A DNA stretch of 64,000 nt, taken from NCBI GenBank assembly GCA_002205965.3, contig NADL03000624.1:434001-498000 (forward strand), written 5' to 3'. The stretch's first letter is position 1. Each line of letters opens with the position of its first letter. Under the pieces are notes generated by a model. The model saw nothing but the letters and a program-made list of their open reading frames with translations. It was not told where the DNA came from and searched no databases. This document shows positions 3,120-56,330 of this stretch, in pieces. The translations under genes and the position numbers were made by a program. Source of the stretch: Kappaphycus alvarezii (lineage: Eukaryota > Rhodophyta > Florideophyceae > Gigartinales > Solieriaceae).

Positions 3120-3191
3120 ACAATTTTCCATTCTCTGAAAATACAAACAACGCATTTCAGTTGTTTGTATTTTCAGAGAATGGAAAATTGT
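3120..3191. repeat. Perfect 31-bp inverted repeat with 10-nt loop
   Basis: The left arm (3,120-3,150, starting ACAATTTTCC and ending ATACAAACAA) is the exact reverse complement of the right arm (3,161-3,191). The spacer CGCATTTCAG (3,151-3,160) is repeated directly after the right arm at 3,192-3,201. As RNA it would form one uninterrupted 31-bp stem. The spacer duplication suggests a template-switch or foldback origin. Confidence 0.95.
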
Positions 3192-3802
3192 CGCATTTCA
3201 GTGAATTGAGATAAAATTGGCCATTTGTTTCTGTAATATTCAATTTGCTACCTGGAGCAACCAGCTCAGAGATCATACTCCTGACACGCTTTGTCAAAGA
3301 GGTACTGTGCAACCCTACTCTGAAACTCTGGGATAAGTTGACATCTGCCAGATGTCAACATCGTGCAATTTTACAGGTATAGTACAGTAGAGTGTACAGT
3401 AGAGTATGTCCATCCCCCTTGCGCCAGGAATATTCCAAGAAGGCAACCGGAGACTCCATCGCTATCGAATAAGAACAGTTTTACTTAGAGACGCCTCGGT
3501 ATCACCGGCCTTCAGTCTCCAGCAAATTTTACTGTACTCAATCCATGCATAAAATAGAGCCACGCTGGACAGCTCTCAGTCAGTTTGCTATTGAAAAACG
3601 AAAAACATGATCCGAGGGAAAAGGGAGACCAATTTTTTTTCCGAGCAATGAAAACAGCAATATCCAACAAGGCAACTACAGTATGGGCTCTCCGGAAAAC
3701 ACGAAAAGCAGAGCCTCCTGTCCACGTGTACATTTCGTACCCTCTCTCATCAACATGACATATGCGGGATATCACCATAGGCTATAATGTACATTACTGT
3801 AA

Positions 3803-37600: not shown

Positions 37601-38460
37601 TCTTTCGTCCCTTGTTTATCAAAAATTCAGTGCAAAGCATTTGCATAGAATGCGAACGTTCCAAGCATATCCTTGGTGATAGAATTCCAGGCTTCCATAA
37701 CTGTCCCTCTCAGACTTTCAATATCCCCAAACCGACGCTGACAAGCGTAAAAACTCCTCACAATATTACCCCATAGATTCTCTATCGGATTAAGTTCCGG
37801 TACAAAAGCAGGCTCTATTTTCGGAATTCCTTGCTCGTACATCCAGTCTCTCACAGAAATGGCTCTATGACAAGGAGCTCCATCTTTCAAAATAATCAAA
37901 GATACAGGCAAGTGTGCTTCAGCAAACGGGAGAAAGTAGTACGTTACGGTCTCCTTGTACGCCCACTGGTTTTGTCTACCCTCCATAAATGAAATATCGC
38001 TCTTCTTTCCTCTAGCAAATGCTGTCCAAATAAGGTATTTGGACTTTCACTACGGTCATGTCTTTTGGAGAACCACTGCGGCTCAGCACGCAAATCGTGC
38101 AATTTTCAGGCGAGCCGGTCTGGTCCGTCGAGATTGAACTTTTCTCGTTGGATCAGGCCACTTTTTCTCATTTATTCTGTCCCTATGTGGCATGCTCAGT
38201 AGTCCACCCTATTTTTTCCACTAAATGATGTTATATCATGGCCGGAGTTAGCGATTTTTTCTTATAGCGCAAATTAAATGTCTCGCAGAGGAACTAGGGC
38301 ACTCCGGCTGCTTTCAAATTTAACTGCAGTGATCGAAAGAGCTGGCCAGACTCTTGCAGACCCTTTCCTGCTTGGCGAATGAGATTTCTTCTGGTTGCAT
38401 CAGTTTTTTTGGGCCTCTTTGTTCTCTTTTTCGTTCCATATCCTCTCTTATCCTTTAAGA
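37600..38460 (-). pseudogene. Second Tc1/mariner transposase relic
   Basis: Minus-strand open stretch 37,627-37,986: MEGRQNQWAYKETV, LIILKDGAPCH (second catalytic Asp), ELNPIENLWG (Glu, 33-34 residues later) and FGDIESL. Upstream, in broken frames, are KFNLDGPDRLA, LHDLRAEPQWFSKRHD and the W-FS-RH pattern of the family. In the first catalytic block the usual SDEK reads QREK, so the first Asp appears lost as well. It is more decayed than the element at 26.9 kb and belongs to a different Tc1 branch. Confidence 0.85.
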
Positions 38461-38469
38461 ATAGATTAA

Positions 38470-39015
38470 AAACATGAAGGGAGCGGTTGAGACGTGCTGC
38501 GACTTCTTTGTGGGGAACAAAGTCTTGTTTGTAAGCCAGGGTTTACCCCTTCTCGAAATCTGTCAAATCGAGTCAGCGAGGAATTCTGTTGCGGGTTTTA
38601 CGGTTATAGTTAGATCAGTGCCGGTATTACATCCCTTAGAACATCCCCATTGGTTAGATTTAACAATATAAATTTTGATGCAGCTGGACATTTTTCATTG
38701 GCTGACACAAATTAGTTTATTTATGTCATTTAGCTCCTTTATTCTTTTTCCACCGATTGAATTCTTCTTTACTTTTCTGTCACCCCCGTAATCAGTAGGA
38801 GCGATCTTCTTGTACCAACAGTTATCAAGCAGAATCCCATCCTTCAAATTTTCATAGTCGATGACCTGATTGATATTGTTCATGACCTTTCTCAGCCTAC
38901 TGATGAAGACGAAGAGAAACAGAGAGATTGTCATTGTTATCGTATTTGAAAGAGCAGTTTCATGCGTATCTATGATGCTCTTCAATAAAATATATATTTT
39001 ACGCAGCGGAAAGAC
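38470..39015. other. Non-coding gap
   Basis: A 96-codon open frame on minus (38,695-38,985), rich in Asn/Lys/Ile, has no motif that I recognise. Nothing else is visible. Confidence 0.3.
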
Positions 39016-39019
39016 TGTA

Positions 39020-40030
39020 CGGGCAAACTAGGGCTGTCTGGCATACAGAAAGCCACAGCCACATTTCGAATTCTGGCATACGGGTGTTCATCTGATTCCG
39101 TCGATGATTATTTGAGATTGGAATCTTCTACTGCGGATCAGTGTGTCAAAGGGTTTTTCAAAACGGTTATTAGGTCTTTTTTCCAGGAGTATCTTCGAGC
39201 CCCGACGGAGTCTGATATTAAGAAAGTACTCACCAGGTCAGAGAGGCGGGGATTTTCAGGGTTATTGGGAAGTTTGGATTGCTTTATGTGGGTATGGAAA
39301 AACTGCCCAACAGCCTGACACGGGCAGTTTGAAGGAAAGGACAGTGTTCCAACGATAACATTGGAGGCGATTGCAGATGACACGCTATGGATATGGCATG
39401 CTTTTTTTCGGAATGCCAGGGTCTTGCAACGGTATTAATGTACTTGAATGCTCACCTCTGCTACAAAAAATTTCCAACGGGAGTTATCCTCCCCCCATTG
39501 AGTTCATTATTGACGGACAGAAACGGAATGTGCCCTAATTCTTTGTTGACGGCATTAAGCCAAAATGGCACTACTTTTTACATACCGTTCTAGACCCAAT
39601 TGCAGAGATGGAGAAAGTATTAGCAAGGTGTCAAGAAGGAGCACGTAGGATGTGGAGGGTGCTTTTGGCGTTCTTCAAAGCAAGTGGCATATTCCAAGTC
39701 GTCCCGGGCGCTATTGGTCTGAAGACGTAATGCATGAAATCGTTAAGTGTTGCATAATCTCTCAAAATATGGCCGTCGAGGAGCTTGGAGAGCTGGAAGG
39801 AGAGAGTTAATTTGTAGAAGCAAGCGATGAAGATATAGTGATTGGAGGGAATGCAATAACGATGTCGGCAAATCTGGAGAGTTTGGATTCCTCTACTGCT
39901 GTTCCGCCCGGATCGGTAGCAGCTCTCTTCGCAATGAGCAACTTTACTAGAAACGATACTAAGCACCACAACACTCAAAAGTTGGTCATGAATCACTCAT
40001 GGATGATGAAGGGACCCTCAATCCTGTAGC
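39020..40030 (+). pseudogene. Harbinger-like transposase relic (plant-type subgroup)
   Basis: Broken frames give YLRLESSTADQCVKGFF-like sequence, LGSLDCFMWVWKNCPTAWQG (first Asp), TLEAIADDTLWIWHAFFGMPG, the GINVL position (where the second Asp would stand), DG-K-.VPYFFVDGI and RDVEGAFGVLQSKW (Glu). This order is that of the plant/oomycete PIF-type DDE_Tnp_4 transposases. The second Asp appears changed (NGI instead of NDI). Multiple stops and frameshifts. The accessory-type gene at 55.8 kb is of the kind usually paired with this subgroup. Confidence 0.75.
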
Positions 40031-40089
40031 CTAGATGATACGTTTAATATCGACATTATTGTTGGCAGCTATGAAATGCTTTGATCTCG

Positions 40090-40800
40090 TCGGTAATTTT
40101 TCAAACTCAGGTAAGGCATAGGAACCCTTGGATCTGCCCTAGGTTCCAGGTGCTCAGGAAACCTGGTGGCCTCTGGGAAAAAACCTGGACCAGGATTCCT
40201 GGAATAAACCTGGCCAGGATTGCTGCCTAGTAATCCTTGGCAGAAGGTCCAGTAACACCCCAAGATACCTGGAGAGGTTCCAAGGAATCTGCCCAGGGCG
40301 CCCGATCGCCTGGACAGGAACCGAATTCTCACTGGCTTCCTGGGACTTTGGCATTAAGTGAAACCCACAGGATCACCCAGGACTCCCCCAGGATTCTCTA
40401 CGCCTGGAAGAGATTCCTGTTCAACACCCCAAGGTACCTGGAGAGATTCCCAGGAATTAGCCCAGGACAGCCTATCACTTGGACCAGGAATCGCATGCTG
40501 ACTGAATTTTGGTACATCGGCATTATGAAAATGTCCAGGGTTACTGAGGATTCTTCTAAGATTCCGTGAGCCTGGAACAGATTCCTGGGAAACACCCCAG
40601 GATGCCTGGAGAGATTTACAAGAATCAGCCCTGGACGATCGATCACCTGGACCAGGGATCGCATGCTAACTGGCTCCCTGGGATATAGGCATTTGGTAAA
40701 AATGCCAGGACTACCCAGAATTACCCAGGATCCCCTAAGCCTGGATCATATTCCTGGGAAACACCCCAGGTAATCCTGGAGATAAATGGAAGGTTAGCAG
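40090..40800. repeat. 169-bp tandem array, CCWGG-rich
   Basis: CCTGGAGA recurs at 40,268, 40,437, 40,605 and 40,775, so the period is 168-170 bp over about four units. Each unit carries AACACCCCA(A/G)G, CCTGGAGAG, a TTCC(A/C)AGGAAT-like word, GATC(A)CCTGGAC and CTGGGA. CCTGG or CCAGG occurs about every 15-20 bases. No coding sequence is seen. Related CCAGGAATCC words appear at 54.5-55.6 kb. Confidence 0.9.
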
Positions 40801-42420
40801 CAAAAGTTTTGCTAGCCTGGGCCGGGTGTGCTATTCCTGGACGACATCTGGGTCTCCCTTGGTAGTCTCCGGAGTTTCTTGACGGGATCCTTCGTTCACC
40901 TACCAGGGTAGGTTTACATTGTCAGTTGATCCATTATATTCCTATTGTAGAGCTAAAATTCAGCTAATTAACCTCTAGCTTTTCGCGCAATACGGCAAAT
41001 CCCCGGCCCTCTTACAATATCGCTGTGAACTCTGCCTTCATATGCAGTCCCCGTAATACTCAGCACCACCTCGGTTTCACCCTGGGAACTCATATTTGAA
41101 TTCGACCTGATCGCGTGACATATGAGAGACAAAACCGTTGGACCCGAATACGCCACATATGAGAGATAAATCCACTACCACTTAACGTACAACGCAAATT
41201 TTAGAATCCAAGTTCATTAGATATACAATTCAGTCACTGATTGGTAAAATCAATATCACTAACCGAATCGATCTGATTTCGAATAGTCTTGCTGTGCCGC
41301 TGTTGTCCCATGTTGTTAGCACAAAGACTCGCAGATGCACACAATGTTGAATATTAGCTGGAAAAAATGAACCAAATGTTACGGTAAGTGCAATGTTTCA
41401 TCTCCGGACCGACTTGATTGCGCGAAATTGTAGAAGAAATAACCTATCTCGACGGAGCTGCTTGATATTCAGCCAAGTGCCAACTTAAATGAAGAGAAAA
41501 TTTTAGACCATTAGCACTGCGTAATGCCAATACACCCACACTATAACATTTGTCAAGGAACAAGCTTGAGGCATTCGGTACGTACCTGATGGACAAAGTA
41601 CCCTGCGCTGACGCATTTCCTATCAGCTATTAACTGACGTAGTTGGTCCATTTTGACAAACTCGCAGGTAAGATATTCGGGCAACTACCAAAAGAAACAG
41701 TTAGACATGCGTTGCAATCGACGATGACCGAACCAAAAAAAATAAACATAACGTACCTATGCAAACTCTGCTAGGTGTCATAACTAGTTTCCACTTGGTT
41801 GGGCATTTTCGTTACTGCGGTCCCGTCCCAGACCCGCTTCGCAGCGGGGGAGCCAAGTGACACCTGAGGCACTGCGCAGTTGATAAAGGGAATGGAAAGA
41901 AATGGGCAACTTGCACTCAGGGAATCCTGTCTGAACTTCAGCAGTGAAAAAGGAAAAGGCTTGAATCACTGCACGATTTCAAATCAAGCCAAATCGTGCA
42001 GTGATTCGAGCTTTGCCGTTTTCATAGAACGGATTCTCTGAAAGCGTCGAAATCTTAATTTACTTTCTACTGGGAGCCCGCCTTCTCAACATCACCATTA
42101 TTTAGATCTTCGAGCCATCAAGATAGTAAAAAAAGATGTCGTTAAAGTAGGAACCCATATGTACGGATTGATTGGCTACAGTAATTTGCTGCAAATAGAA
42201 CCGCCACCCACTCGACGACTGGGCACAACGTGGCAAATCAGATACACAGACACATCATAAAAATGTAGTATTTCGCAATTAATCTATGAAGCTTTTCTGT
42301 TTTTTTACAGCGGAGATCACAAGAAACTCATAATTTTATTAATTAAAGCATACCCGAGTGAGTTCAGCTCTGGTACCATAACAAGAATCTCCTGAGGGTT
42401 CAACTCATCTCATATTAAAC
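40800..42420. other. Non-coding with foldback
   Basis: I recognise no gene. It contains a short direct repeat ACATATGAGAGA(C/T)AAA (41,111 and 41,156) and the long foldback at 41,924-42,050. Confidence 0.45.
41924..42050. repeat. Long imperfect foldback
   Basis: The core arms are exact: GAATCACTGCACGATTT (41,963-41,979) and its reverse complement (41,991-42,007), with an 11-base loop. Pairing continues outward with mismatches through TGAAAA(A/C)GG(A/C)AAAG and GAATCC(T/G)(G/T)TCT on each side, giving roughly 60 paired positions. Possible origins are a MITE-like foldback or a small-RNA precursor. Confidence 0.85.
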
Positions 42421-42458
42421 ACTGTTTGTAGTATCATTCTTAATGTACTTCAAACAGT
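42421..42458. repeat. 13-bp-arm hairpin
   Basis: ACTGTTTGTAGTA (42,421-42,433) pairs with TACTTCAAACAGT (42,446-42,458); 12 of 13 pairs match, loop 12. Confidence 0.8.
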
Positions 42459-42501
42459 ATTGTTTACTGATATAATCTTTTGCCTTATCTACCGTTTCCC
42501 A

Positions 42502-42582
42502 CAGTAGGATCCTGGAGTTGAAAAATCAGACTTCTCGACTGAAATAGCTTAATTTGTTGACTGCGCTTCCAGGATCTCACTG
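42502..42582. mobile_element. Possible 81-bp foldback element
   Basis: CAGTAGGATCCTGGA (42,502-42,516) and the reverse complement of 42,568-42,582, CAGTGAGATCCTGGA, match at 13 of 15. The inner part is unrelated. It could be a very small MITE. I could not confirm a target duplication. Confidence 0.4.
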
Positions 42583-42779
42583 TATAAGGAATATTTAGCT
42601 AAGAGGCTCCCTCTCTCCTGCAATTCCTTCCAGGTGTTCTCTTTTCTGCAACTAACCGCTGTCCGCTTCAACCGACCGAAGCTAGATGCTTCATCTCCGG
42701 AAAAAAAGGCGGATCCTGCGAGGGTCCGGCACCCCCTTTGATTGCTGAAGCAAATTCTTTCATCTATCCTCACTTCAGA

Positions 42780-45700
42780 TCATGGGAATGCCGAGAAGTA
42801 AGATAATGCAGCGATGCCCTAGGTTCCGCCGTCCATTTGCATCCGGGAATCCGCCCGCACTCGAAACTCATACTGGGAAGTGCAAGTTCTCCCAGTCCCA
42901 GTCCAGAAGCGGTTTAACTGGGTCTGCTCCGAGTGGGAGAAGGTCATTACCTGTGAAATTGGGAGGGGATGCACGTAAACTACCACTTGACCGTGCGTTC
43001 TTTCCGGAACTAGGCGAGGGAGACGGACTTATTGCTGCTGCGCAACTAGAAGGTGAAGATTTCAATGACGCTATAAAAAGGGCTGGTGTTGAATCTGTTG
43101 TCCAGCTAGGAGCCCGGCTTTCAGCGGATAAACAAAGTAAGGTGAACGGAAATTCTGCGCTTGGAGAAATTGCATCCCTTCTCCAAGCCGTCTGCGGAAA
43201 TGTGGTAACATGATAGCAAGAGAACTCTATGAGAAACTATCATCGAGTTCTTTCACTGGGGATGCATTCAAATCTGCATTCCAGGGACTCCAGGACATCC
43301 TGAACTATGATGAGAATGGCGAACAAGAATCCTGCACTGCTGCCAAAGGGAACGGGTTTCGTGTGATATACATTTCTACCATCAACTCAGCAATCACGGG
43401 CCAGTGTTGTTACCGAAATACTTTCGATGTCTTGATTGCTCAAGTGAAACAGGTCCCTACCTCAGAAATTCTTCGGGGTCCCGCTAGGAGTGAAATGTCG
43501 AATCATCCGGTGAATGCGGAACTCTGTCGGCTGTCGGAGACTCAATTATGTCCGACATTGATAGGAATTTGCTTTTGTGCACAATGGACGCAGATGGTGA
43601 GCAGTCGGTCATTTTGCTACTGCAGCTCTATATCTATAGTGACAATTCTGTAACTTCGCTGAAGCCTTCTCGTTTAACCTTTGACCGCTTTCATGTTACG
43701 GTTCTCAATGTTGCTGAGGAGCGTCGCCGGAAACTTTTCACAGAAGGGAGCACGATGGCTTCCTTCCCTCCGACCATGTCAACAGGAGTATGGATTACTT
43801 TACCACAGACATATGCAGGTGCAACATGCAAAGTCTTGAATACCACACTGTAACAAACCTAAAACAATTAGGTTTGAATAGGGTGGCTAAACTCTGCATG
43901 TTTTGGGGCGCGACATATTACAGACGCGGCACACGTGGACCAAATCGCATAACTAAGCTGCTGATAAAGCCGAGTCTCCACTCCTCCCGTCGAGCATCCA
44001 CTGCGGGTTGCGACAGCGACCGCGTATTCGTCTATTAACTTGGAAGTCGTCGCAGACGGCGATCCAAGTGAGTCGAAGGCTAGCGGCACAAACTTCCATC
44101 CCAGTTTTGATCGTCCTGGGAGAACTTCACCGGGGATGGCTGCTATTTTGCTGGTAAGCTCCCTATTTTTCCGTTTTTCCGCTGCATTGGCAACGGCGCG
44201 CAACGGTTCGCGCCCCACCGGCCCCAATGGACATGAAACCCTCTTGGAATGTCGATCTTACTGTGACGTCGTACGCCCCCGGGAGGGTCAGCAAGGTGTT
44301 GATCTCTGCCGACCTCGGGTACACTAGAATGTCGGCAGGCCGTGTATTCAGTCCGGGAAGTAAGTAACAGGAGTTAACAGCGACGCGTCTGAGTTACTCA
44401 TTCAGGAGAGTTTCGACCTTGTTGTGCAACCACTCCGAGAAGTTGCGAAATCTGGATTCTCTGCTGTTGATTCTTGCGGTGAAAAGTGGAGGTGCCATAT
44501 TGTCCTTGCTTCATACTGTGAATATCTGCTGGAAGCCAAGCAGATCCTCCGTGTGAGAGCAGGAACAGGAACTGCGCTTGCCTGTCACCGATGTTTGGCC
44601 CGAAAGGAAGAGTTTCCGTTTTGGACAGAGATTGAGCACAGGAATATTCCTAATACGTCTCAGGTACTTGGTGATTACACCCTACTTTTGGAGCAGGCGA
44701 AAAAGAATTATAGCAATATGCCGTCGGTATCGAGGCAATGCAGGCAAGAAGCTAATACATTACTCAAATCAAGGCCGTTAAAACTCTATATGCCAGTCTT
44801 ACACTCATTACAGTTTGTTGGTCTCTGTCCAACACTGAATGTGTACCAGATTTTCAACTACGAGCCGATGCACAACTTCTTTTTGGGTCTGTCAAGGACG
44901 ATCAAGGAGGCATCAATTGAAAGGCTTCGCTCGGATGAAATAACGACGTGTGCATTATCTCCTCGACCCAAAGTTCCACGCTCTTTTCGTAGTATCCGAA
45001 CAGAGTTGATTGGTGAAATGAACCACTTTCTTAGGTTTGTTTCCAAAAATCCGGCCGGGTTCAACCTTGATGTTGACTTCAGTATTGATGGTGGTAGGGC
45101 CGGCTTGAATGGTTCGCTTCGTGACGACGATCTTTGGGGAATGCTTGAAGCAAAAGATTATAAGATGGTGGAACAGATTTCTCCATTTCTGAGAGCCATG
45201 ATGGATTGGTACTGTATTGATGATTTACGGGCACCTATGACCAACATATTTGTCATATACGTTGACCTGCTGCGGTTGCTGACAGCGACAGGAGGCATTG
45301 GATAGGATGAAATTAGACTTTTTCACGCGACAGAGTCGATTAAGAAGTTCAAAAAAAGTACAGTGAATGTTCTTGGCGTGTACCAAAAATCTCGTATGGG
45401 GGCATTGAAGTGGCATATGCTCGACCGTGCCATTGATGATTTGAGTCGATTAGCGGGACTACGGTACAATGACGCTGGTATATTCGAGTACGCTCATTTA
45501 TTGTACAAGAGTCTATACAAGCTTACGTCAAGGCGTCGGCGTTCGGCAATGGAAGAATCGATTCGGAAACTACATGGGAAAGAATCAAGTAATGCGGAAA
45601 ATAGAAAACGGAAGGGTTATGGTTTGAATAAGACGAGAACTCAGGTAGCTAAATCAGATACAGTTTTTCTGTAACTGGAGATTTTACGATACACCTGAGT

Positions 45701-46900
45701 GATTTATTAGGGGTGAAAAAAGCGGAGTGAAGTGCTGACATTCCTAACCGGCCAAACTCACAGTCCAACAAAGCATCCCAATCTCAAAAAGTTCCCAGGG
45801 AACTATTACTCATGCTTGATTCTGAGCGTTGGAATTTTTGAAGGTGAGCTTACCAGAGTTACTTGAATCATCAGGCTCACAGAATGAAGATTTCTCCAGT
45901 TTATCAAACACAGTTATCAAGTTCTCTTTTTCAGCATTTATATCCGGATATGAAGTACCCACGCTTTCATCTCGTGTGAAAAACAAGGGTGTCGCTTCTG
46001 ATGAGGAGAGTCACCGTAGTTTCTCGCAAAGGATTTTTGCCGCACCATCATGGTACAAGTCAAAGTTTTTAAAACGCTATACAGTGATGGTTGAAGATGG
46101 GCAAACACCGCGGACACAGACCGAGAAAATTCCTGTATGGTTCGCGAAGGTACTTTTCCTATCAGAGTAACTCGTTCTGGAGGAGTCCGTCCCGGTACAT
46201 CCCTGTGAATTTCAAATAATTGGGAGAAGCGCTCAAGTTTTGTCTCTGAAGAAATTGAAGATTACTGTTGTGTACAGTACTACTATGTTCTGGACGAACG
46301 TGATTTGCCTGTAGACGCTGCGAAAGAGCTCGAGATTGCACCCAGCTACGATGGTCTAGATACGGTGGTGATGATGGGGAATCTTCATGTACAGGATCGC
46401 ACGGGCTATGTCCTTAAGACAGTTAACATGGTCTTGTTCATGTTGTGCGCGGAGATATAATGAATTGCCGTCTTCGCGGACATACTGAACGCTCACAGCT
46501 CCTGGATCGTTTATCTGACGGTAATGATGGATGGCAATCAGAAATATTCTATATCAACCGATTTCACGTGGGGAGAGGCATTGAGTTCACTATCGATAAT
46601 GGAGAATTGCAGGGAAGCAGATAGATTTGTAAGTGCAATGCAATTGCACAAACAGGTTGTCCGCAGTGGCGCGACAAAGCATAAATTAGTATATATTTTC
46701 GATATTTCACGAGGGAAAAATAATTCTTTTTCTATACAGCCCTCCTTTCTCATGCCATATGGTAGAATTCATGATTTTTCAAGGAATTCATCACTTGTGC
46801 AAATATTACACGGGCGATGTGTCTATTATACGGCGCGCAATAGAAATATTTCTAACTGTTTATATGGTATACAACGTGCAGTTTTTATGCGATATGCTGG
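42780..46900 (+). pseudogene. CACTA/KDZ-like transposase relic
   Basis: A chain of plus-strand fragments in order: a C2H-type finger remnant with FALETHTGKC-like spacing (42,782-42,880); YRNTFDVLIAQVKQVP (about 43.41 kb); VILLLQLYIYSDN and RRRKLFTEGSTMASFPP (43.6-43.77 kb). The longest open stretch (44,424-45,305) has CHRCLARKEEFPFW, NYEPMHNFFLGLSR and ...AMMDWY. Then GALKWHMLDRAIDDL and YKLTSRRRRSAMEE follow (45.3-45.67 kb), and PSWYKSKFLKRYTV (46.06 kb). The C-x2-C...EPMHNF-LG...KWHMLD order is that of large CACTA/KDZ-type DDE transposases; I cannot choose between them. The relic is interrupted by an antisense LINE fragment and many stops. Confidence 0.6.
43868..44235 (-). pseudogene. LINE 3' coding tail nested in the CACTA/KDZ relic
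   Basis: Minus strand: AAEKRKNRELTSKIAAIPGE, GWKFVPLAFDSLGSPSATTS and RLYQQLSYAIWSTCAASVI, a 119-codon open stretch. It shows the same order as the 30.9 kb and 29.5 kb tails (K.R..E/Y, then F-PLAFD-LG, then YQ-LS-..W). It splits the transposase relic between its 43.8 kb and 44.4 kb parts, so it inserted after the transposon. Confidence 0.75.
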
Positions 46901-47182
46901 CTAAACATAAAGCACGTCGTCATGAAGGCGGTCGTCAGAGACGGTCTCTATGCGCTACCGTGTTACCTTACTCGACTAACACTACAGTCTAGCAAATTAA
47001 AGGTTGATACCAACTCGAAGTTGTTTCCAACATGTGGAAAGGCTTGCTTAGTTATTGTTTGTAAAAAACGCTCAGTAAAGTTCCAGAGTTGTGTGGATGG
47101 TTGATATCAAAGAACTGCATGGAATATCAACACATCATGTGTTGATCATAAGTTCCCTTACAAAGCCGACTCGAGGCCACTG

Positions 47183-47254
47183 GCCAAACGCACTGCGTTT
47201 GGCAGTATGCCTAATGAATAGCATCCATTAGGCATAATGCGTTTGACATGACAG
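47183..47254. repeat. Double hairpin
   Basis: The first hairpin is GCCAAACGCA-C-TGCGTTTGGC (47,183-47,203), perfect. AG follows, then TATGCCTAATG-AATAGCATC-CATTAGGCATA (47,206-47,236), perfect 11-bp arms. Downstream ATGCGTTTG can instead pair with the first left arm, so alternative folds exist. Confidence 0.9.
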
Positions 47255-47329
47255 CAGCGTTTCCGACACGCTGCAGCGGCCGTCAGAGATTCTTTCAGTA
47301 TACGTTTTAAGACGATATAGGGACAAAGA

Positions 47330-47800
47330 ACCGATTGGGAAGAGAATATTCCCCGAGTTCTTTACGGATATCGGAGACGTTGTCTGTCTACTTGTGTTCC
47401 ACCGTTCGAGTTGATGTTCGGAATTCCGCCACGTATTGAACCTTCGTATGCCGGATCTATGTTGTGAAGCACGCCGGACGAGCATTTGAAGTACGAGTTG
47501 CTCACTGCAGAGTTACTACAAGCTCATAGGAGAGACCTGCAATTGCGCCAAGCAGCAGGACGTTATGTTCTCGGAATGCAGAAGTTTAATGTTGGTGATT
47601 TGGTTCTGGTGGCCAATGATCAATCGCTCACATCGGCAGGAAAGTGGCCTGCGTTTAAGTCCCGTTACTAAGGCCCTTGTCTTGATTCGAAAGCGTTGAA
47701 CTCAAGGTATTGGCTTGTGTCGAGGAACGATCACCATTAACGCCGCTCGATTCATGCCCGTCGTCTTTTGACGTACACTCTACGTCCAGGGAATCTCTTG
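47330..47800 (+). pseudogene. LTR-retrotransposon (Ty3/gypsy-type) integrase C-terminal relic
   Basis: Plus-strand fragments: PPFELMFGIPPRIEPSYAG (about 47.40-47.46 kb), then a 61-codon open frame (47,486-47,671) with RLRQAAGRY-like helix, MQKFNVGDLVLVAND and GKWPAFKSRY, then -ARRLLTY- near 47.77 kb. The order PFELMFG...F-VGD-VLV...-K(W)-.-.-Y matches the end of gypsy integrases. No LTR or reverse transcriptase is visible nearby, so this is a solo fragment. Confidence 0.6.
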
Positions 47801-47947
47801 GACTAAGAGTCGCTTGTTGTATTAAGTTCAAATGAATGGGTTTCTCTTCTGTTGTTCTTATTGTTTTGTTGCATTGATCAAGTTTAGTACTCATGAAATT
47901 GCTTTACTCCCCATGCATGTCACATTTCCTATTTTTTCTATCTCCTT

Positions 47948-48690
47948 TTACTGATGGCTCGTCATCCTGAATAATTTGGTTTGAGAGGCCACGAAGAGTT
48001 CCCGTACCTCCGCGAGCCTTGCATTGGAGAAGCTCCCAGCACATGTAGCAAGGGCCGCTGTTTCTAAGCGCATAGGTCGGTCTTCGATTCCGTTAAGTAT
48101 CCAACCCCGTCTACTGTCCACCGCGACGCAATGATCTAATTCGTTACCCGCTGCCAGTCGCACGATGCACACCGCTGCCAAAGCAGTCACGAAGTAGTTA
48201 ATGTTTCTCACGGCACGTAGGTCTGCTTTGCGTAGGTCTAAACTCATTCCCAACCCCTGCACATGTCTGGTGCACGATGAGACGGAGAGAAAGGGAGTTT
48301 GTTTTTTTGTCCAGTTTGGCCGTGGGTATGTGAGCCACCGTTTGCCCGTATAGTGCCTGGATGCCATTGACGATTGAAACCTTCATACAGTTCCCACCAT
48401 GAGTACGCATCGCGAGAGGAGGAGCATCTAAGATAAGGAACCCAACAGAGCGGTTGTCCTATTCCCTTGCACCGGGACCACCAAGCGCGATACTGTACCC
48501 TTGATGTTCTTCAAGCCAATTTCCGAGCTGTCGCATCATACGACCAGGTCGTAGGTCCATGCAGAGGTTCTTCGGTAGTCGGATGCAAGACGCAGCGGTT
48601 AGTGGTGCACTCTTAGCCGATTCGGTTTCGGCGCGTACGACGTAGTTCGGGTTGCGACCACCTCTCTCCCAAACTCGCATTGATTTGGGA
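47948..48690 (-). pseudogene. Element-borne protein with possible cysteine-peptidase-like motifs
   Basis: Minus-strand fragments in order: NLCMDLRPGRMMRQLGNWLE, EHQGYSIALGGPG (48,459-48,680), then RTHGGNCMKVSIVNGIQAL (48,198-48,410), then NELDHCVAVDSRRGWILNG and PMRLETAALATC (47,948-48,367). A Cys in GGNC followed about 100 residues later by His in DHCVAVD resembles the catalytic pair of papain-fold peptidases carried by some transposons. This is a motif-level suggestion only. At least one frameshift and one stop break it. Confidence 0.35.
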
Positions 48691-48699
48691 TCGACGGAG

Positions 48700-50030
48700 A
48701 AGAAAGATTAGGATCCGCCCTGCAATCTGGATGATGCGTAGATATGCCCGCGTTCCATCACTTCCTCGCGCGTTAGGGTGATGCCGTCGCCAAGCATAAT
48801 TTTTCGACAACCATCCTACCTTTTTTGGTGTTCACGGATGTGGCCTAGACAAATGTGTCCTGTGGCTGAGCAGGCAAGCATAGAGTAGGAGAATGACTCG
48901 ACGGTTGAGTAGATGGGGTCGAAGGCTGCTCTTCTTGGTTGGTGTTGGAACGGTTGTTCTTGAGAGACGTTGGTTTGACTTGACCACTGCGTCCACTACG
49001 ACCACGCTTTCCCCTTATACTGTAATTGACCAAGTGGCACGGGCGAGCCCCTCAAACAACAACGTCACGTCCCCGAAGGCAGGTCAAGGCTGCGTGGCAG
49101 GGCTCTGCGACCGCGGGATCCAAATGGGAGCGCAGGTAGGGGGAAAGCGCGACGAAGAGAACGGGCAAACTTTTGCAACGCGACGTCAAGAGAATGAGGA
49201 AGGTCGGGTGTCGTTGACTGTTCGCATCCTGAGACTGCTGGTGTGACCACGCTCAAATTGCATTCGACTACCTGAGTCTGAGTACAAAAGGCAAAAAAAA
49301 ATCTTCCTCGCTGTGCAACATGGTAAAAAGAGCTCCGAAACTTTAAGATAATACAGTACTTGACATTTAAATGTTTAGAACCTGGACTCCCTTGCTGTGC
49401 CACAAGGTAGAATAATGCCCGACATTTCAATTCAATTCAGTACTATTTAGCAGTTAACGGTTTCGGAACCTGGACTCCATATTTAAAATATGTGCCTTCT
49501 TCGTTTTATTCAATCTCAATCACTTGCTCACGGTGGTTCAAGTCCGCAAAAATCCGCCTGTGATGTATGAGTCAGGCGTCTTAATACTAGAAATAAAGGA
49601 ATTTTGGACAGGACAGATGTGGAGAAAACTGAGAGCACTGTTCTTTCTTATCGTCTTTGTTCTTTTTTCTACTCTAGATCGTTCCTTCACAATTGGATTA
49701 ATTTATACTACGGAGAGACTCCAACGTTGCAGTACTGAGTATTGACTCAAAGAGGAGAACGTCCCCATACTACATACAAATTAGGGCCATTACCAACTCG
49801 TACGGCGAACCGCTTACGGCCCGTCAAAACTCAGAACACACACCAAAGAAACCATCAAGGCACGCACATGCAACAACTAGCCGGGGTGGGGTAAAATTAC
49901 TGACAACCTTACAATTATATCATCACTTCAAACCCCCAAATCATTACAACTGAACATAAAAGTCTAATATGCGCTATTTGTAGCCTACAGCTCACAAAGA
50001 AGTTGCATGTAGACCAAACTTTGGCAAAGA
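48700..50030. other. Unassigned, with 80-bp repeat units
   Basis: Open frames at 48,845-49,430 on both strands have no recognisable motif. Two of the three 80-bp repeat units lie at 49,300-49,480. Confidence 0.35.
49300..49480. repeat. 80-bp repeat, two tandem units plus a third at 50,607-50,690
   Basis: Shared words are TTGCTGTGC(A/C)ACA(T/C/A)GGTA, then AGCTCC(G/A)AAA, CAGTACTT or GTACTT, and an AACCTGGACTCC junction. Units begin at about 49,309, 49,390 and 50,607. The third lies inside the hairpin-rich stretch, and its CTCCAAAA/TTTTGGAG ends form a stem. Confidence 0.75.
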
Positions 50031-50031
50031 G

Positions 50032-51151
50032 GCCTCATCCTTTTCTGGTAGGTTAAATTTGTCAGAACAGGATGAGGCTACCTTGCTTCACATTTCAAGT
50101 TTCATCGCGCCGAACGGGATGCACTATTCTGTATATACGATATTTTGTGTACAGTCCCCAAGGTGCATACCTCAGTTCATCCTACTAATATTCAGTGAAT
50201 GCTAGCAGGAGGAACGGGTCGCACCTCCGGGGTTTCAAAAACCTGCTAGGTTAAGTAACACTCCCGGTCTCCACAGCGATGGCGACAAATCTTCAATAAT
50301 ATATCGGGGAGGGCACGGAGGAATTTAACGCTAAAGAAAGAAATGAGAGCAGGTAGTTAGAAGGGGGTGGATGACACTGCCATCCTGCCTTCGAACTATG
50401 TCGCAGCCTGCAACGGCTCAGTCGTTTCAGGCTGCAGCATAGGTGACATCATAATATGACCAAGTCTGAGTCGCATCATGATGCCACCACCACTGAATCA
50501 GGAAGTAGTGATACAGACATTTCCTGCATTACTGGTGGTAGCATCATGAATTCAAGTCCATAAGTTACTGAGATGGAATGAAACACTGTTTTATTTCATT
50601 CGATCTCCCTTGCTGTGCAACACGGTAAAAATAGCTCCAAAAATTTACGATATTAGCGTACTTCGCAGTTAAAGTTTTGGAGGGCTGCAACATCGGGGAT
50701 CAGTGAAGAATCAGATTGAAGGGGCTATCATTTTTAGAGGTTCCTGGGACATCCAACTAAAAATGATTTGATGTAGAGAGTTGAAGTGCCAAGCGTAGCC
50801 TACGCTTCGCACTTCGACCCCCTGAAGCGGTCGACTTCTGTAGGGAAGCTTTCCCCTGCAGGAACTTGTGTTGAATTAGTTGCAGTGCTTTGGCAAGAGA
50901 AAATAGAGCCTTTCCCTACCCACTTAGTAAGTGGATCCGACTCGACCACTTCGGAAGTGGTCTGTATTCAATAGACCACTTTTGATCCGCCCATTTCTCT
51001 GCAACTTGAAGTTGAAGTTGCAGAGGAAAGGGAAGAGCGAGGAAACCGATGCAGGGTATGTTCGAGTGCTTTTCAAGTACACCATGATGTCGAACAGCAT
51101 GCTGGAGTTGGTTAATAAACTTAACGGCCTCGTGCACGGTTTCACCGTGCA
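50032..51151. repeat. Hairpin-dense array, about 1.1 kb
   Basis: Stem-loops that can be checked by eye: 50,032-50,078 (16-bp arms, 1 mismatch); 50,202-50,249 (8 bp); 50,396-50,442 (15 bp, 2 mismatches); 50,477-50,548 (about 29 bp, imperfect); 50,570-50,607 (14 bp, 1 mismatch); 50,635-50,682 (8 bp); 50,727-50,767 (11 bp perfect); 50,783-50,815 (15 bp, 1 mismatch); 50,839-50,860; 50,920-50,934 (7 bp); 50,944-50,962 (9 bp perfect, GACCACTTC-G-GAAGTGGTC); 50,997-51,025 (11 bp perfect); 51,059-51,096 (7 bp); 51,095-51,104 (10-base palindrome); 51,133-51,151 (8 bp). Arms are different sequences, so this is not one repeated hairpin. No credible protein is encoded. Confidence 0.85.
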
Positions 51152-51501
51152 ATGCAAAATCTGACCCAGTCTTCTTTTTTGGAAATTTTGAGGGCTTTAA
51201 TTCGACGAGGTAGCGCAACTAGTGAGACAGCTGAAGTTATGTTTTGAGTCCTTCAAATTTCTACCGTTTCGTGCAGCAAGAGATTGGCATTACTGCTTGT
51301 AAACTAACAGAGTTGAATGAAACGCTTTATTGAGCAAAGTAGCAAAGAGCAAATTTCGCAATCACTAAACGAGTAACCTCACTCCTCTCCCGTGTCCTCG
51401 CAAAGGACTGGGATATTGTAATCAGCGGAATACTGTTTCACCTCCGTTCCAGGAGAGTCGCAGTGGCAATCGTAATAATCATCGACAGTCCAAAGCAAAC
51501 A

Positions 51502-53994
51502 TCAGACAATTTCATTAAAGCATACATGCGTTAGTGCAATGTAGATGGGTCCATTCCGAAGATTCTGAAAATCATTTGTGTAATTAAGACTGCTGTTGTT
51601 AAGAGACCCAATCAAAGAATCCCGATTGGGCACTACAAGCTTATCCATGAACTCAACCTCTCCGGTGTCCGCTTTCTTTTTCTGTAGTTCAGTTGCAAGT
51701 AGTGACCCACTGTACTTGAGAAAAGCTTCTGTTGCAATCAGTAGAAGCTCTTTGAACTTTCCCTTCAATATTGTGGGCTCAGTTCCAATTTTTAATTGTG
51801 TAGATTTCTTCCTCTTCAAATCCTTGATAAGTGAGGTTATCCACGCATCAAGCCGTGCAACAAGCATTATGCTAATCTCATCCGCCTTCGTAATCTTCTC
51901 TCCTAAGGAGGTCTCAGGGACTATTCGTGCAGGCTCATTAGCAAAAATGGTGTTAATCCCATCCAGTTCCCTACACGGTAATGGATCCGTACCTTTGCAC
52001 AGATCTCCTCGAATGTTGCTCGTCTCCACCATGAAGTGACAATCTGGCCGCTCGTATCCTTTTTGATGAGCTTACGGATGGCTTCATTGAACTGCTTCTC
52101 GCGTCTCTTCAATGTCGCTGTATCGATAACCTTAACTTTCTTCGAAGAGACGATCAAAGAATACCCGAGCTCTACAAAGTAGGTTGACTTCAAAGCCTTC
52201 TTCCGAATACCGACATTCTCCCGACAAATCCCAATCAGACGCCTAACAAGGTCTGTGCTATTCCCTGCCAAATTCGTGATGCGTTCCTTCGTTGTAGAAT
52301 CAAAACGTTTCTCAGCATTCATTACCCGCCATGCAACGCTCTGAAATGGCAGTACATAACACAAATTATCAGAAAAGAAGAACTCTCCCATTTAAGCCAG
52401 ATTCATTGGACAACGTGGAACACTCCCGACACCCAGTCGAGCAGTATTGTCCTTTCCCGACTCAGACAAGAATAACACATCTCCTACCGGAATCCCTACT
52501 TCCAGTCCCTGTGAGTAGATGGAATCGTCCTTAGTTTTCAGCTCACCTTCACGACCACACCATTCTTACTGCCGATGCCCTGGAGGTTGCTCTATATTCG
52601 GATACCAAGTGCGTTCGGTATTAAGGGAAGCAAATTCAGATGGAAAGGTTTCTGTAGCCACAAACTTCGCGACCCTTGGCATCTGGTTGTAGAGTCCCAG
52701 AAGGATGTGAATCCAATCATCCTCTGCTCCCTCCCTCCTGGGCGCGATAGTTATCGCCAACCGCTTACACATGACACCTTTCATCCCGACCAAATAGCCC
52801 TCAGAAGAGGACCTTGCGGAACATCTCGAAGCTGTTTGAACAAGGACCATCTGGCCCCGCAGGGATGCGACAGTTGTTTTCTCTTTGCCAAGCGATAAGT
52901 GCAACAAGTCGACAGTTTTCTCGAGCTGGAGAATGCTGCGATTCTTTCTGGTAATTTCCCCATTCGCTTCGTTCATTTGTCGACGAAAGCCAGCGATCTC
53001 CATCTCCAATGCTCGCGTGCTGGGCAGAACGGCTTCCTGGTCTTCTACCATGATGCGCGATTTTGTCGAGACTCTGCGCTTTTTTGCACCGCGTGTCATG
53101 CACTGGCCCATGTCGCTCGACTGAGGGGTAAATCTTCTGAAATATTTCCAAATATCGACAATGACCCTGACAGTCCTAGTTTGTCTGCTTCCAAGGACAA
53201 ACTTTTCCTTTAATCACCGACGTTTTCTCGGTTGCTTCCATCAGCTCCACCAGCCGCAAAACGGGCCCTTTTGACTCAGAATTTTACGTCCCTTCGATCG
53301 CATGCAGAAAGTGTTGACATTCAGGAAGGGCTTGTCGCAGCCATCTTCTCCATCGGAGGGATCATTATCACCAAGACATGCATTGTCCTGAGAATCATCT
53401 ACCCCATCATAATCATTTTCAACTTCAATCTGGGTCACTTCCTTCCTAATGTTCAAAACAACCTTTTCACTCTCCAGTGGGTTATCAAGTTTCACGGGTT
53501 GCGCAACATCGTGCACGGGCTTCGAAGCAGAATTATTATTTGGAGAGTATTTAAGGGGGAAGAGGACCAGAGGTACTTAGGGAACATCCTTGAAGGGGGA
53601 GGATTCCTGTACACGGAAACTTGGCGAGAACTCGCGGTGTGTTGATTGCCAGTTGTTTGATGAGCTTTGATACCTTTTGAGTATTCCGGATCCATTGCGA
53701 CCAAAGGGGTTGTGGTAGTGATATGGGACCCTTGCAACTCATTGATGTCGCTGTCATCGAGATCCGATCTCACAGAGTCTGTGACCTTGGGGACACGTTG
53801 TGTGGGCTTGGCGGGGTGCGGAATCCTACCACCCATTCTATGCGAACCGCACCTTTCAAATATTAAAAAACTAAATCGATCACCCCCATTCTATGTGAAG
53901 AGATGTGGACGGCACCCGCTGATGTCATTTTCGTGGCCAGCGGAGTGGATTTCCGGGTACGACCCTGCAGTATTTTGTTACCGTCGGAGCCCAT
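51502..53994 (-). CDS. Multi-exon gene of unknown function
   Basis: The last two exons are well supported. 52,340-51,993 (116 codons, SVAWRVMNAEKRFDSTTKER to FEEICAK) joins 51,933-51,502 (143 codons, PARIVPETSLGEKITKADE to FNEIV) across a 59-base intron, AAG|GTACGG...GCTAATGAG, in phase 0. Upstream, an acceptor CTGCCATTTCAG ends at 52,341, and a small exon (GLEVGIP, 52,488-52,508) sits between candidate introns of 147 and 38 bases. Earlier coding pieces are a coiled-coil segment (52,566-53,111; MEIAGFRRQMNEANGEI, SILQLEKTVDLL), an acidic piece (53,241-53,516), a Ser/Thr-rich piece (53,492-53,836) and a possible start at 53,994 (MGSDGNKILQGRTRK). I recognise no domain. How the upstream pieces join is uncertain, and they could be two genes. 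Confidence 0.5.
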
Positions 53995-54079
53995 GGGAGG
54001 AAAGTGGTTGGAAGGGGTTGGTAGAAGGAAATAGGTACGAGGGACTTTATGTGTGGATTGGGAGAGTTTGATGTTTTTG

Positions 54080-54450
54080 AGATGGTAGGGGAGTATTAAA
54101 ACTCAAGAATTACTCGGACGTTGGGGCCAGAAATGTCCAGGAACAAAACTTATGTTGGACAGATTCTTCTCCTCGAATCTAGGGAGTCATTCTAACCATT
54201 TCTATGAAGCCTTGAAACGAATTGGCCAGCTCTCGAAACATGGCAACCCCTCTCATGTCATCCGGTTCTTGGTATCATGTAGAATATCAAATTGTAGTTT
54301 ACACTGACATGGATTTTTGTTTATTTTTGTACTTATGAGTTTCCCACCGCACCGTGAGACCTGTTTCATACTTGAACTGATTTCTTTATTTTCTTGAGTA
54401 TCATTTAATGTACGTTGGTTGGTTGCGTTCATAAAACATTTTTAGTAAAT
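54080..54450. other. Non-coding gap
   Basis: No gene or repeat recognised between the unknown gene and the CCAGG-rich repeat. Confidence 0.4.
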
Positions 54451-55640
54451 ATTTAATCGTAAGGGAGTTTGGGATTCCCTCGAGGAATCAGGGGTTCTTT
54501 CTCAGTGTTCTTCCAGAAACCCTAGGTCTCTCCAGGAATCCTTTAATTTTCTCCAGTAATCTTATGATTTTCTCCAGTAATCCTGTGAATTTCCCCAGGA
54601 GTACTGTGTCTTCCCCAGGAATGGTAAGAATCTTTCAGGTTTTGGGATTTTTCATCAGAGTTGGGAGTTTGAGTCGCTAATATAATGAATTAAAAGCAAA
54701 AGTTAGGTAACTAATTTCCTGGACATTACAGTTAAGCATAGGGATCCATTCATTAGTCCTGGGTTCCTTGAGGGATTTCCCAGGATTCCTGGGACTTTCT
54801 CCAAGAATCCTGGGATTCTGGCTAAAAATTTTGGGGCTTCTCCAAGAATTGTGAATATCTTCGAGGTTTATGGGTACCATACCACGCAATTGGGAGTTTT
54901 AGTCTCCAATACGACCAGTTAACGACAGAAAAAGAGATGTGGGTCGACATCGTACTATTTATGGAAATATATCGGTTTTCGGTCTGATCCAGGAATTCCT
55001 CAAGGATCAGGAGGAAACCTGGGCCACCCCTGGAATATTCCCTATGTATCAATTTAAGTGAAAGAAACTATATTAATGATGAAACTTACTTAAACACCTT
55101 TTAGCCATCATGAAGCTGTTTCTACAGTTGATGGCTAATTACTTTGGTGAATTTCAAAGAGTATGCTCCACATCGAGGATGCATCCAAGAATACCTGGGA
55201 ATTACTCATGTTTCCTCGGATAGCCTGGGGTGAATAAGTATCTCTAGAATAGAAATCTGTCGATAGTCGCTTTTTGTACCAGCATGAAAATTCTAAAAAA
55301 CTTGGAAACAGACTTATCTTATTTGAAATACACCAGAAAAGGTCTGCTCTTTTCTTGTCCCTGGGGAATCCCCGGGAATTCTTGTCTTCATAATTCGTCA
55401 TATTATTGAATTTTATATTGTTCGATTTTCCTTGAGTAATTTTCCAAGTTTCGCCCAGGTAAAGGTCCCCGGATTCCTAGGATGCAATGTACAGGATTTT
55501 TTCAGCAATGTGTTTTGTTATTTACAGTGCTTACAGCCTACCCCAGGATTCAACCCCAGGAAACCCGGAAAATCTCGAGGTTGTTCTGGGCCATTACTGG
55601 GAACAGGATATCGCCTGGGAGTCTGGGGGTGTTCTTGGGA
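54450..55640. repeat. CCAGGAATCC-rich dispersed repeat array
   Basis: TCC(A)GGAATCCT and CCCAGGATTCCTGGG words recur irregularly. A longer block starting (A/G)TTGGGAGTTT(G/T)AGTC recurs at about 54,659 and 54,889. The base words are those of the 169-bp array at 40.1-40.8 kb, but the period is not constant. No coding sequence. Confidence 0.65.
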
Positions 55641-55771
55641 TTGCAAAATTATTGACGCTACTATGTATCTATGTTCTCTTTGATGTTTGCACCAGGCTTA
55701 TAGACGTCGTTAACAACATCTTCAGCGGTAGGAGATGAAATAACTGAATTGGTTGACACAAGTGGGGCCAA

Positions 55772-56330
55772 CTATTTGACAGCTCTTCTCCTTGCTTTCT
55801 GTAGCGCTTCCGCCTGCATCAAGTTAAAATACTCAAATACATCATCTTTGTTACATTCTGCAAGAGCCGATGAGAACAGCATTATTTCATTATAACGATC
55901 AAGGCAGGCGTTTCTAGCTTGCTGTAGCTCCACCGTTTTCTCTGCTATCTTCAGACGCCTTTGTGCTGATTCTGCTTTTCTAGCAAGCTCTTTGCCCTTA
56001 CATCTTCTCATTGGATGTTCCTTCTTCGCAGAATCGGAGTTACTTTCGGCATTAACATCCTTATTATCATCAAAGAAGACGATTTCGCCAGACGATACTT
56101 GAGCAGCACTTTCTTCCGTTAGACTTTTGAGTGCCGACAAGCCGCCTATAAACTTTTCATGATAGCGCAATATCTTCCACCGCTTCAAAAAACTTTAAAT
56201 GTTTGACACAGTTGTCTGCAGCAGAACTTATCTTTACCCCATAGTGAAGATCCGTCGCCACTCGGTATATATCATTTTCGCTGACTCCCGTTGGCTTCGA
56301 GCGCTGGATGCTGCTAACAAATCCTTAATA
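55772..56330 (-). pseudogene. Harbinger-type accessory gene (NAM-associated-like) relic
   Basis: Minus strand: SENDIYRVATDLHYGVK, then in another frame WKILRYHEKFIGG, a Ser/Asp-rich linker, CKGKELARKAE, NACLDRYNEIMLFSSALAEC, DVFEYFNLMQAEALQKARRR and a stop at 55,772. The pattern 'CWxILRxHxKF ... KRAK ... L.RYNEI.LFS ... EYF.LM...AL.KAR' is that of the accessory proteins found beside plant-type PIF transposases. One frameshift is visible near 56,190. No transposase lies next to it here; the matching subgroup is at 39-40 kb. Confidence 0.6.

Follow-up and report, generated by a model that had tools for sequence, protein, structure and literature searches.

A dense palindrome array in the non-coding spacer of a decayed algal DNA transposon and its possible origin by template switching

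The stretch of DNA analysed here (64,000 nucleotides, hereafter the window) carries a family 1 DNA transposon (Table 1), both limits of which lie where homology among its dispersed copies stops. The element interrupts another repeat whose other copies are uninterrupted at this site: the empty sites in two of them read GATCTACTACG, against GATCT-element-CTACTATG in the window, and the target duplication is therefore CT. The inverted-repeat ends read CGTC..TAATTTT.CAA. The right end ...CCGACG is common to four of five distant aligned loci (L021, L022, L025 and L026), where the flanks differ, and the fifth (L023) ends in CCGAAG. Subterminal repeats are a trait of CACTA elements, and short CCAGGAATCC-type repeats occupy such a position here. 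The repeat nested in the transposase gene is found in at least 34 other places at 91–93% identity (40 of 2251 candidates scored). In the assembly searched (336 Mb, 884 contigs) the chlorophyll a/b-binding family has 22 matching places, so the host is a photosynthetic eukaryote. A search with Fungal_trans gave 0 matches, as did its control, and thus carries no weight for the lineage.

The transposon has two convergent genes, A and B, which are broken in those copies for which open reading frames were listed. Gene A is 60% identical to its family 2 counterpart over 163 aa, and gene B is 59% identical both to family 3 (78 aa) and to family 2 (108 aa), with no Pfam match above the cut-off. Between them lies a non-coding spacer, part of which is a block packed with hairpins, with ~10 kb of the element to its left and 4.5 kb to its right. 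The block starts about 20–170 bases past the end of gene-B homology (51,175 in L023 and 51,259–51,324 in six other loci), and a second, smaller cluster of related hairpins is found downstream of gene A at 46,954–47,240. No tandem repeats that could be its source are listed within the block. A protein-coding block was likewise rejected, as its longest minus-strand ORFs (up to 50,916–51,218) are almost wholly outside the cross-family homology.

Table 1. Features of the transposon, its hairpins and the comparison locus (window coordinates).
Feature	Positions	Strand	Description
Comparison hairpin outside transposon	3,120–3,191		32/32 bp, 8-nt spacer; 41-nt stretch with one arm missing from paralogs
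Comparison palindrome	3,337–3,359		11/11 bp, one-base centre; 15-nt stretch with one arm missing from paralogs
Left target-site duplication	40,086–40,087	+	CT, 2 bp
Family 1 DNA transposon	40,088–55,657		15,570 bp; carries the block
Left terminal inverted repeat	40,088–40,104	+	CGTCGGTAATTTTTCAA
Gene A region	42,781–46,777	+	Decayed transposase; limits from cross-family homology; codon-position bias
Nested high-copy repeat	43,790–44,366		~570 bp, within transposase gene; skipped by family 1 copies
Hairpin 3' of gene A	46,954–46,988		12-bp arms, 11-nt spacer in consensus
Palindrome 3' of gene A	47,126–47,146		10/10 bp, one-base centre
Palindrome 3' of gene A	47,202–47,240		19/19 bp, one-base centre in consensus
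Motif copy a	49,301–49,379	+	Conserved ~80-nt unit
Motif copy b	49,387–49,479	+	Conserved ~80-nt unit
Palindrome 1	50,024–50,086		31-bp arms, 30/31 paired in consensus, one-base centre
Palindrome 2	50,173–50,217		22-bp arms, one-base centre
Hairpin 3	50,354–50,398		11-bp arms, 23-nt spacer
Palindrome 4	50,396–50,442		CTATG...CATAG, 13 uninterrupted bp in consensus, 7-nt tip
Palindrome 5	50,442–50,488		23-bp arms, 22/23 paired in consensus, one-base centre; window copy decayed, 17/23
Overlapping alternative pairing	50,476–50,549		Present in window copy
Hairpin 6	50,507–50,533		10-bp arms
Hairpin 7	50,570–50,607		14-bp arms; in family 2 right arm recognisable, left arm not
Motif copy c	50,603–50,682	+	Conserved ~80-nt unit
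Hairpin 8	50,635–50,682		Within motif copy c
Hairpin 9	50,727–50,767		ATCATTTTTAG / CTAAAAATGAT in window copy
Palindrome 10	50,783–50,815		16-bp arms, one-base centre
Hairpin 11	50,838–50,861		CTGCAGGG / CCCTGCAG in consensus
Palindrome 12	50,944–50,962		GACCACTTC G GAAGTGGTC; right arm can alternatively pair with 50,973–50,981
Palindrome 13	50,986–51,036		22-bp arms, 21/22 paired, one-base centre in alignment consensus
Hairpin 14	51,080–51,104		11-bp arms, 3-nt loop
Hairpin 15	51,132–51,152		GTGCACGGT / ACCGTGCAC in consensus
Gene B	51,311–53,213	-	Decayed, convergent to gene A; coiled-coil-like by eye
Right terminal inverted repeat	55,641–55,657	-	CGTCAATAATTTTGCAA (minus-strand reading)
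Right target-site duplication	55,658–55,659	+	CT

The first-pass annotation, made from the letters of the window, had described a dense run of hairpins at 50,032–51,151, and this observation holds, with the limits now refined to about 50,024–51,152. The three stems that it quoted were found where it had placed them, as was the alternative pairing of 50,955–50,963 with 50,973–50,981, which is the pairing scored in this region of the consensus described below. A listing of inverted-repeat pairs (seed 7, arms at most 200 apart) gave 20 in 49,500–51,700, 15 of them wholly within 50,024–51,151 and some overlapping; the arms are mostly unrelated from one hairpin to the next. With a stricter score (ungapped, match +1, mismatch -2, spacer at most 30), hairpins scoring at least 10 number 7 in the 1.14 kb of the block (6.1 per kb), 8 in the 14.4 kb of the remaining transposon (0.55 per kb) and 7 in the 48.4 kb of the window outside it (0.14 per kb); 192 kb of mononucleotide shuffles yield 4 (0.02 per kb). 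Folding against shuffled sequence, which had been proposed as a check, agrees with these counts: in tiles of 1,120 bases with a base-pair span of at most 90 and 30 dinucleotide shuffles, the plus strand of the block folds at -384.9 kcal/mol versus a shuffle mean of -270.2 (z -10.0), and 55 other plus-strand tiles of the window have a mean z of -0.36 (SD 1.66, minimum -4.5). The minus strand of the block, against the same kind of shuffles, gives z -9.35, so that the strand preference is small. The whole window has no match to Rfam 15 at gathering score, and a tRNA search found none.

The block occurs in 12 dispersed places of the assembly, itself included, and the 11 others are 77–90% identical to it over all or part of its length. 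All 18 candidates were scored, with very common words skipped, and among the 21 matches listed 12 are substantial and nine are short pieces. These copies also share the sequence that flanks the block on either side, all 12 substantial matches lie in copies of the transposon, and no solo copy was seen when the hairpins were searched together as a block. The hairpin array is common to the copies, three of which cover only part of it (L018 and L019 hold part of the block and L016 is without its start). The statement that no known transposon explains the structure is thus overturned, as a 15.6-kb transposon holds the block within its internal spacer. The idea that it could be unmasked as a set of independent MITE insertions turns out not to apply, because the entire spacer is mobile as a single unit. 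Nor is there support for organelle-type double-hairpin DNA inserted in the nucleus, since every one of the 12 substantial matches found across the 336 Mb is a transposon copy.

What did the array look like in the element from which these copies descend? Three of them (L010, L011 and L012) are ~100% identical in the block, possibly through duplicated assembly or a segmental duplication; L011 and L012 were left out of the consensus and the rate counts, leaving 10 non-redundant copies. Their majority consensus, built ignoring structure, has a folding energy of -394 kcal/mol per kb, and the 12 copies taken singly range from -280 to -339; since it folds better than every copy, the founder element carried near-perfect palindromes. 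The consensus contains 15 hairpins scoring at least 7 and 8 scoring at least 10, versus means of 4.2 and 0.07 (maximum 1 for the latter) in 30 mononucleotide shuffles. The same voting on the neighbouring spacer at 47,241–50,023 produced no hairpin scoring at least 8, which serves as a control for the consensus method.

Over the 10 copies, stems have diverged from the consensus by 7.8%, loops by 7.1% and flanks by 8.2%. Stems therefore decay as fast as their surroundings and have not been maintained since insertion. Among the 11 stem mismatches of the consensus itself, one is T-G (G-U on the plus strand) and two are C-A (G-U if the RNA were made from the minus strand). Compensatory stem changes number 10, versus 4.4 ± 2.05 in re-paired controls (a value reached by 28 of 2000), and a first count on MFE pairs had given 24 double changes versus 13.6 expected; this excess is a weak sign of maintenance, or of correction between arms, before insertion. 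Within families 2 and 3 covariation shows no convincing excess. Hairpins scoring at least 8 and private to one copy number 4 in 12.1 kb of the 10 copies and do not exceed the rate in shuffles (about 0.47 per kb). Among 117 indels that distinguish copies in the three families, 10 (8.5%) have an inverted match scoring at least 8 in the flank, against 4.4% of 585 control segments. Inversions of the spacer between arms were not seen among the copies (15 hairpins in 10 copies, with gaps), barring a single-base change in L014.

The geometry of the hairpins looks unusual. Pooling inverted repeats that score at least 9 from the three families (with L021 representing L021–L023, and L025 representing L024–L027 and L042), 11 of 22 have exactly one base at the centre: 7 of 12 in the family 1 consensus, 3 of 7 in L021 and 1 of 3 in L025. 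None of the 22 has a spacer of 0 or 2 and 19 have an odd spacer. In 100 mononucleotide shuffles a mean of 1.53 such repeats was found, 0.10 with a one-base centre (maximum 1), and outside the transposon a one-base spacer occurs in 2 of 17 and an odd spacer in 8 of 17. One of the 11 one-base centres (50,986–51,036) depends on the tip variant chosen in the consensus, as the tip of this palindrome differs in length between copies and a window-anchored consensus reads 7 nt there. Eukaryotes are generally reported to favour zero spacers, according to the available text of PMC13155455.

The three families carry different palindromes. The family 2 spacer (L021–L023) was found to share only the ~80-nt motif with family 1, and the family 3 spacer (L024–L027) almost nothing. 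Hairpins scoring at least 8 are denser in these spacers than in the remaining sequence in five of six loci, although far below the density of family 1, and in family 3 the numbers of hairpins compare with shuffles as 2 versus 1.5 (L024), 8 versus 2.3 (L025) and 7 versus 2.5 (L026). A one-base-centre palindrome is found ~240–430 nt past the end of gene-A homology in the family 1 consensus, L021, L023 and L025, in unrelated sequences; that of L025 has decayed in L026, with 12 of 17 bases paired. The right arm of hairpin 7 can be recognised by eye in all three family 2 loci (13, 11 and 10 of 14 bases), its left arm in none, and the alignment has no gap there. On this comparison it may be a case of a one-arm ancestor within the block, suggestive only, as the gapless alignment makes an insertion not evident.

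A clearer candidate for hairpin birth comes from elsewhere in the window, where two hairpins lie ~1.0–1.2 kb past the end of a trypsin-like ORF (4,365–5,093, minus strand; PF00089, E 1.8e-19), this being the end of the ORF and not necessarily of the gene. Two paralogs of this locus, 87% identical to the window copy and with no difference between them in the alignment, lack the stretches that hold one arm of each hairpin, and in the window copy these 41-nt and 15-nt stretches contain an inverted copy of the adjoining sequence. We read both hairpins as probable births by inverted duplication in the window copy, with the polarity taken from the paralogs. The arms are perfect despite ~13% divergence between the copies, the direct repeats flanking the 41-nt stretch have in common a base that differs from the paralogs, and the 15-nt stretch shows no obvious microhomology for a deletion, all of which argues for gain. 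Loss in the paralogs could also account for the pattern, above all for the larger stretch, by deletion between its direct repeats. The trypsin flank itself gives z -2.4. An array of this kind as a general feature of host-gene 3' flanks was considered and rejected: the 1.2 kb downstream of three LHC-gene matches contain 4–6 hairpins each, with scores of 7–11 and mononucleotide z of -0.8, -3.5 and -0.9, one of them being mildly enriched, and as L045 and L047 share hairpins these represent about two independent cases.

From these data we infer, with a probability that we put at roughly 0.52, that the block consists of template-switch inverted duplications which accumulated while the transposon was active. 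Template switching had been one of several ideas in the first-pass annotation and is the one that has gained ground, through the one-arm paralogs at two hairpins of the window and the one-base centres in half of the strong palindromes, while its other proposals (no transposon, a structured non-coding RNA, an organelle origin) have lost it. In such a process the polymerase would switch strands, copy the adjacent sequence backwards and then return, leaving a mirror copy beside the original, often with exactly one central base. Many such events would accumulate downstream of both genes during transposon activity and, presumably, transcription; a single palindrome-rich founder would then be amplified, and its inserted copies would afterwards decay neutrally. 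In a yeast assay quasi-palindrome template-switch events were seen only under high transcription, according to the available text of PMC3820800. Promotion of such events by transcription would explain why silent copies show no gains, if the same applies in this alga. The lack of clear births in inserted copies would likewise tie the process to activity or to a past episode.

Several observations do not sit easily with template switching. Clear births after insertion are missing from the copies, and so are the spacer inversions that are its usual mark. A one-base centre is not expected from plain snap-back, which requires a loop several bases long. One of the one-base centres is consensus-dependent. 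The concentration of hairpins in 1.1 kb near gene 3' ends could mean function, the compensatory excess is modest but present, and the direction of change at the trypsin locus was read from paralogs.

The main rival explanation is that selection shaped the hairpins as an RNA structure where the two convergent genes end, acting in the 3'UTR, in 3'-end formation or as an insulator against read-through and antisense dsRNA, and kept only while the transposon was active. The near-perfect stems of the founder and their decay in the copies would follow, as would the location downstream of both genes in family 1, the recurrence of a one-base-centre palindrome past gene A in families 1, 2 and 3 in unrelated sequence, and the compensatory excess (10 versus 4.4 ± 2.05), which is a weak signal. 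We consider this explanation improbable though far from negligible, and a structured RNA role is still conceivable for the founder element. A structured non-coding RNA, as proposed from the first reading, is nevertheless not supported, given the absence of an Rfam match, the small strand preference in folding, the lack of stem conservation in the copies and the few wobble-type mismatches (1 of 11 on the plus and 2 of 11 on the minus strand). Family 3 is moreover only mildly enriched, with the L025 palindrome reduced to 12 of 17 pairs in L026. The one-base centre in particular is not required by RNA: a hairpin loop needs about 3 unpaired bases, and the bases flanking a single central base cannot pair together; their complementarity is therefore not something that selection on RNA would bring about.

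Palindromy down to a single central base would also fit a role at the DNA level, with the palindromes as a selected element (cruciforms or pairs of half-sites) bound by the gene-B protein or host factors for transposition or regulation. The coiled-coil-like gene-B protein is conserved across families, and in CACTA-type elements accessory proteins act on repeated sites. The arms here are, however, mostly unrelated to each other, the block is far from both ends whereas the CCAGGAATCC-type repeats are subterminal, and the enrichment in family 3 is mild, so we regard such a role as quite unlikely. The exact one-base hinge would also fit a one-base stagger, if the one-base-centred palindromes were healed scars of hairpin-ended breaks made by a hAT-like transposase; hAT elements do form hairpin-ended breaks, and staggered nicking leaves one unpaired base. 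Yet arms of 16–31 bp far exceed any transposon footprint known to us, no transposon remnant was seen at the hinges in a non-systematic look, and many independent events within 1.1 kb would be required, which makes scars of this kind very improbable. A pile-up of independent MITE- or SINE-like insertions, or of organellar double-hairpin elements, has nothing in its favour beyond the hairpins themselves and is hardly credible, as no solo copies were seen, the 12 substantial matches are in transposon copies, the arms differ between hairpins and the array is common to the copies (partially so in three).

If template switching is the correct reading, the transposon copies amount to a dated record, in which the founder shows what the active phase wrote and the silent copies show that it stopped; hairpin gain could then be compared cleanly between active DNA and silent DNA. 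A centre of exactly one base is not what a common snap-back model, with its multi-base loop, leads one to expect, and may thus betray a distinct enzyme or intermediate. There is then also a warning here, as a strong folding signal (z -10) can stem from inverted duplication and not from functional RNA. One may speculate further, tentatively and with the odds against it, that a process linked to activity or transcription in this alga writes one-base-centred inverted duplications near gene 3' ends, in host genes as well as transposons, and that a transposon family active at the time has kept a dense record of this process, with about 16 palindromes in the founder and no above-chance gain in silent copies. 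Template switching as such is not new. What looks unusual here is how dense the hairpins are, their one-base centre, the near-perfection confined to the founder, and the setting. A limited literature search, which cannot establish absence, found no published case of a palindrome array in a transposon spacer.

As to the carrier, the transposon may be a distant relative of the Plavaka/EnSpm (CMCT) group. A gene A fragment (44,364–45,302) has weak similarity to the Plavaka transposase profile PF18759 (E 7.1e-4), at 19.3 bits against a cut-off of 26.3 and with only fragments of decayed copies to compare. The subterminal repeats are a further likeness, as may be a CHRC motif of the C(2)C type that was read by eye in an ORF, the full domain being unreadable in the decayed copies. 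According to the available text of PMC12730594, target-site duplications in this group are 2–5 bp long, which the 2-bp CT duplication matches, and termini are mostly 5'-CA..TG-3' (in Plavaka TGT..ACA or CATCA..TGATG), which CGTC...GACG does not. As the termini do not fit and the Pfam score is below the cut-off, we do not assign the element to Plavaka/EnSpm, from which its photosynthetic host also sets it apart; the word "hairpin" does not occur in the text of PMC12730594 available to us. In the transposases of the group, as described there, the interval from the second D to the last E holds a C(2)C and an H(3-4)H motif, both of which RAG1 has in common with them. RAG-like transposons (RAG1L and RAG2L; PMC7204232, available text) resemble our element in gene layout, with a transposase and a convergent second gene.

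The array itself is closest to template-switch, or quasi-palindrome, mutations as described in the available text on yeast (PMC8604942, PMC3820800) and great apes (PMC7954356), with which it has in common local inverted copies, homogenisation of arms and clustered changes. It differs from them in having about fifteen hairpins in 1.1 kb, half of the strong ones with a single central base, and in a near-perfect founder whose copies show neither clear gains nor spacer inversions. The perfect inverted repeats of Nematomorpha mitochondrial genes provide another parallel, with many near-perfect palindromes that are both gained and lost, and there too template switching has been proposed as a possible mechanism (PMC6649704, available text). 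Those palindromes are mitochondrial and lie in coding sequence, whereas the ones described here are non-coding and sit within a transposon.

An ORF at 38,989-39,315, within the host repeat that the 15.6-kb element splits, matches Plant_tran in Pfam (PF04827, E 1.7e-12), from which we suggest that this repeat is probably a PIF/Harbinger-type transposon. The ORF with a DDE_3 match further to the left is perhaps Tc1/mariner-like. The repeat nested in the transposase gene is found in at least 34 further places at 91-93% identity, and since only 40 of the 2251 candidates were scored, it may be very abundant.

Features discussed in this part, in window coordinates
Feature	Position	Strand	Remarks
Trypsin-like ORF	4,365-5,093	-	
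ORF with DDE_3 match	37,630-38,046	-	PF13358, E 7.3e-8
Host repeat split by the element	38,936-40,087 and 55,658-56,000		
Short repeats, CCAGGAATCC type	40,150-40,900 and 54,470-55,600		both subterminal regions of the element
Hairpin, 21 bp, 11-nt spacer	41,959-42,011		upstream of gene A (decayed transposase region); seen in the window copy
Nested repeat, ~570 bp	43,790-44,366		inside the transposase gene; 91-93% identity to other places
~80-nt motif, family 1, three copies	49,301-49,379; 49,387-49,479; 50,603-50,682		

The ~80-nt motif, found in three copies (a, b and c) in family 1, to which the element belongs, is present in family 2 too. One family 1 copy, L019, lacks the sequence separating motif copies b and c, with an overlap of ~23 bp, and the gap looks as if recombination had taken place between these two copies. 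The sequence downstream of the trypsin-like ORF is matched at 87% identity by two loci elsewhere, and both are without one arm of each of the two hairpins there.

Three family 1 copies on different contigs (L010, L011 and L012) are ~100% identical to one another over the block compared, as are two family 3 copies, L025 and L027, ~31 kb apart on contig C35; this identity may stem from sequence duplicated in the assembly or from segmental duplication of recent date.

Each subterminal region of the element is densely packed with short CCAGGAATCC-type repeats; such crowding of short subterminal repeats is a feature of CACTA elements.
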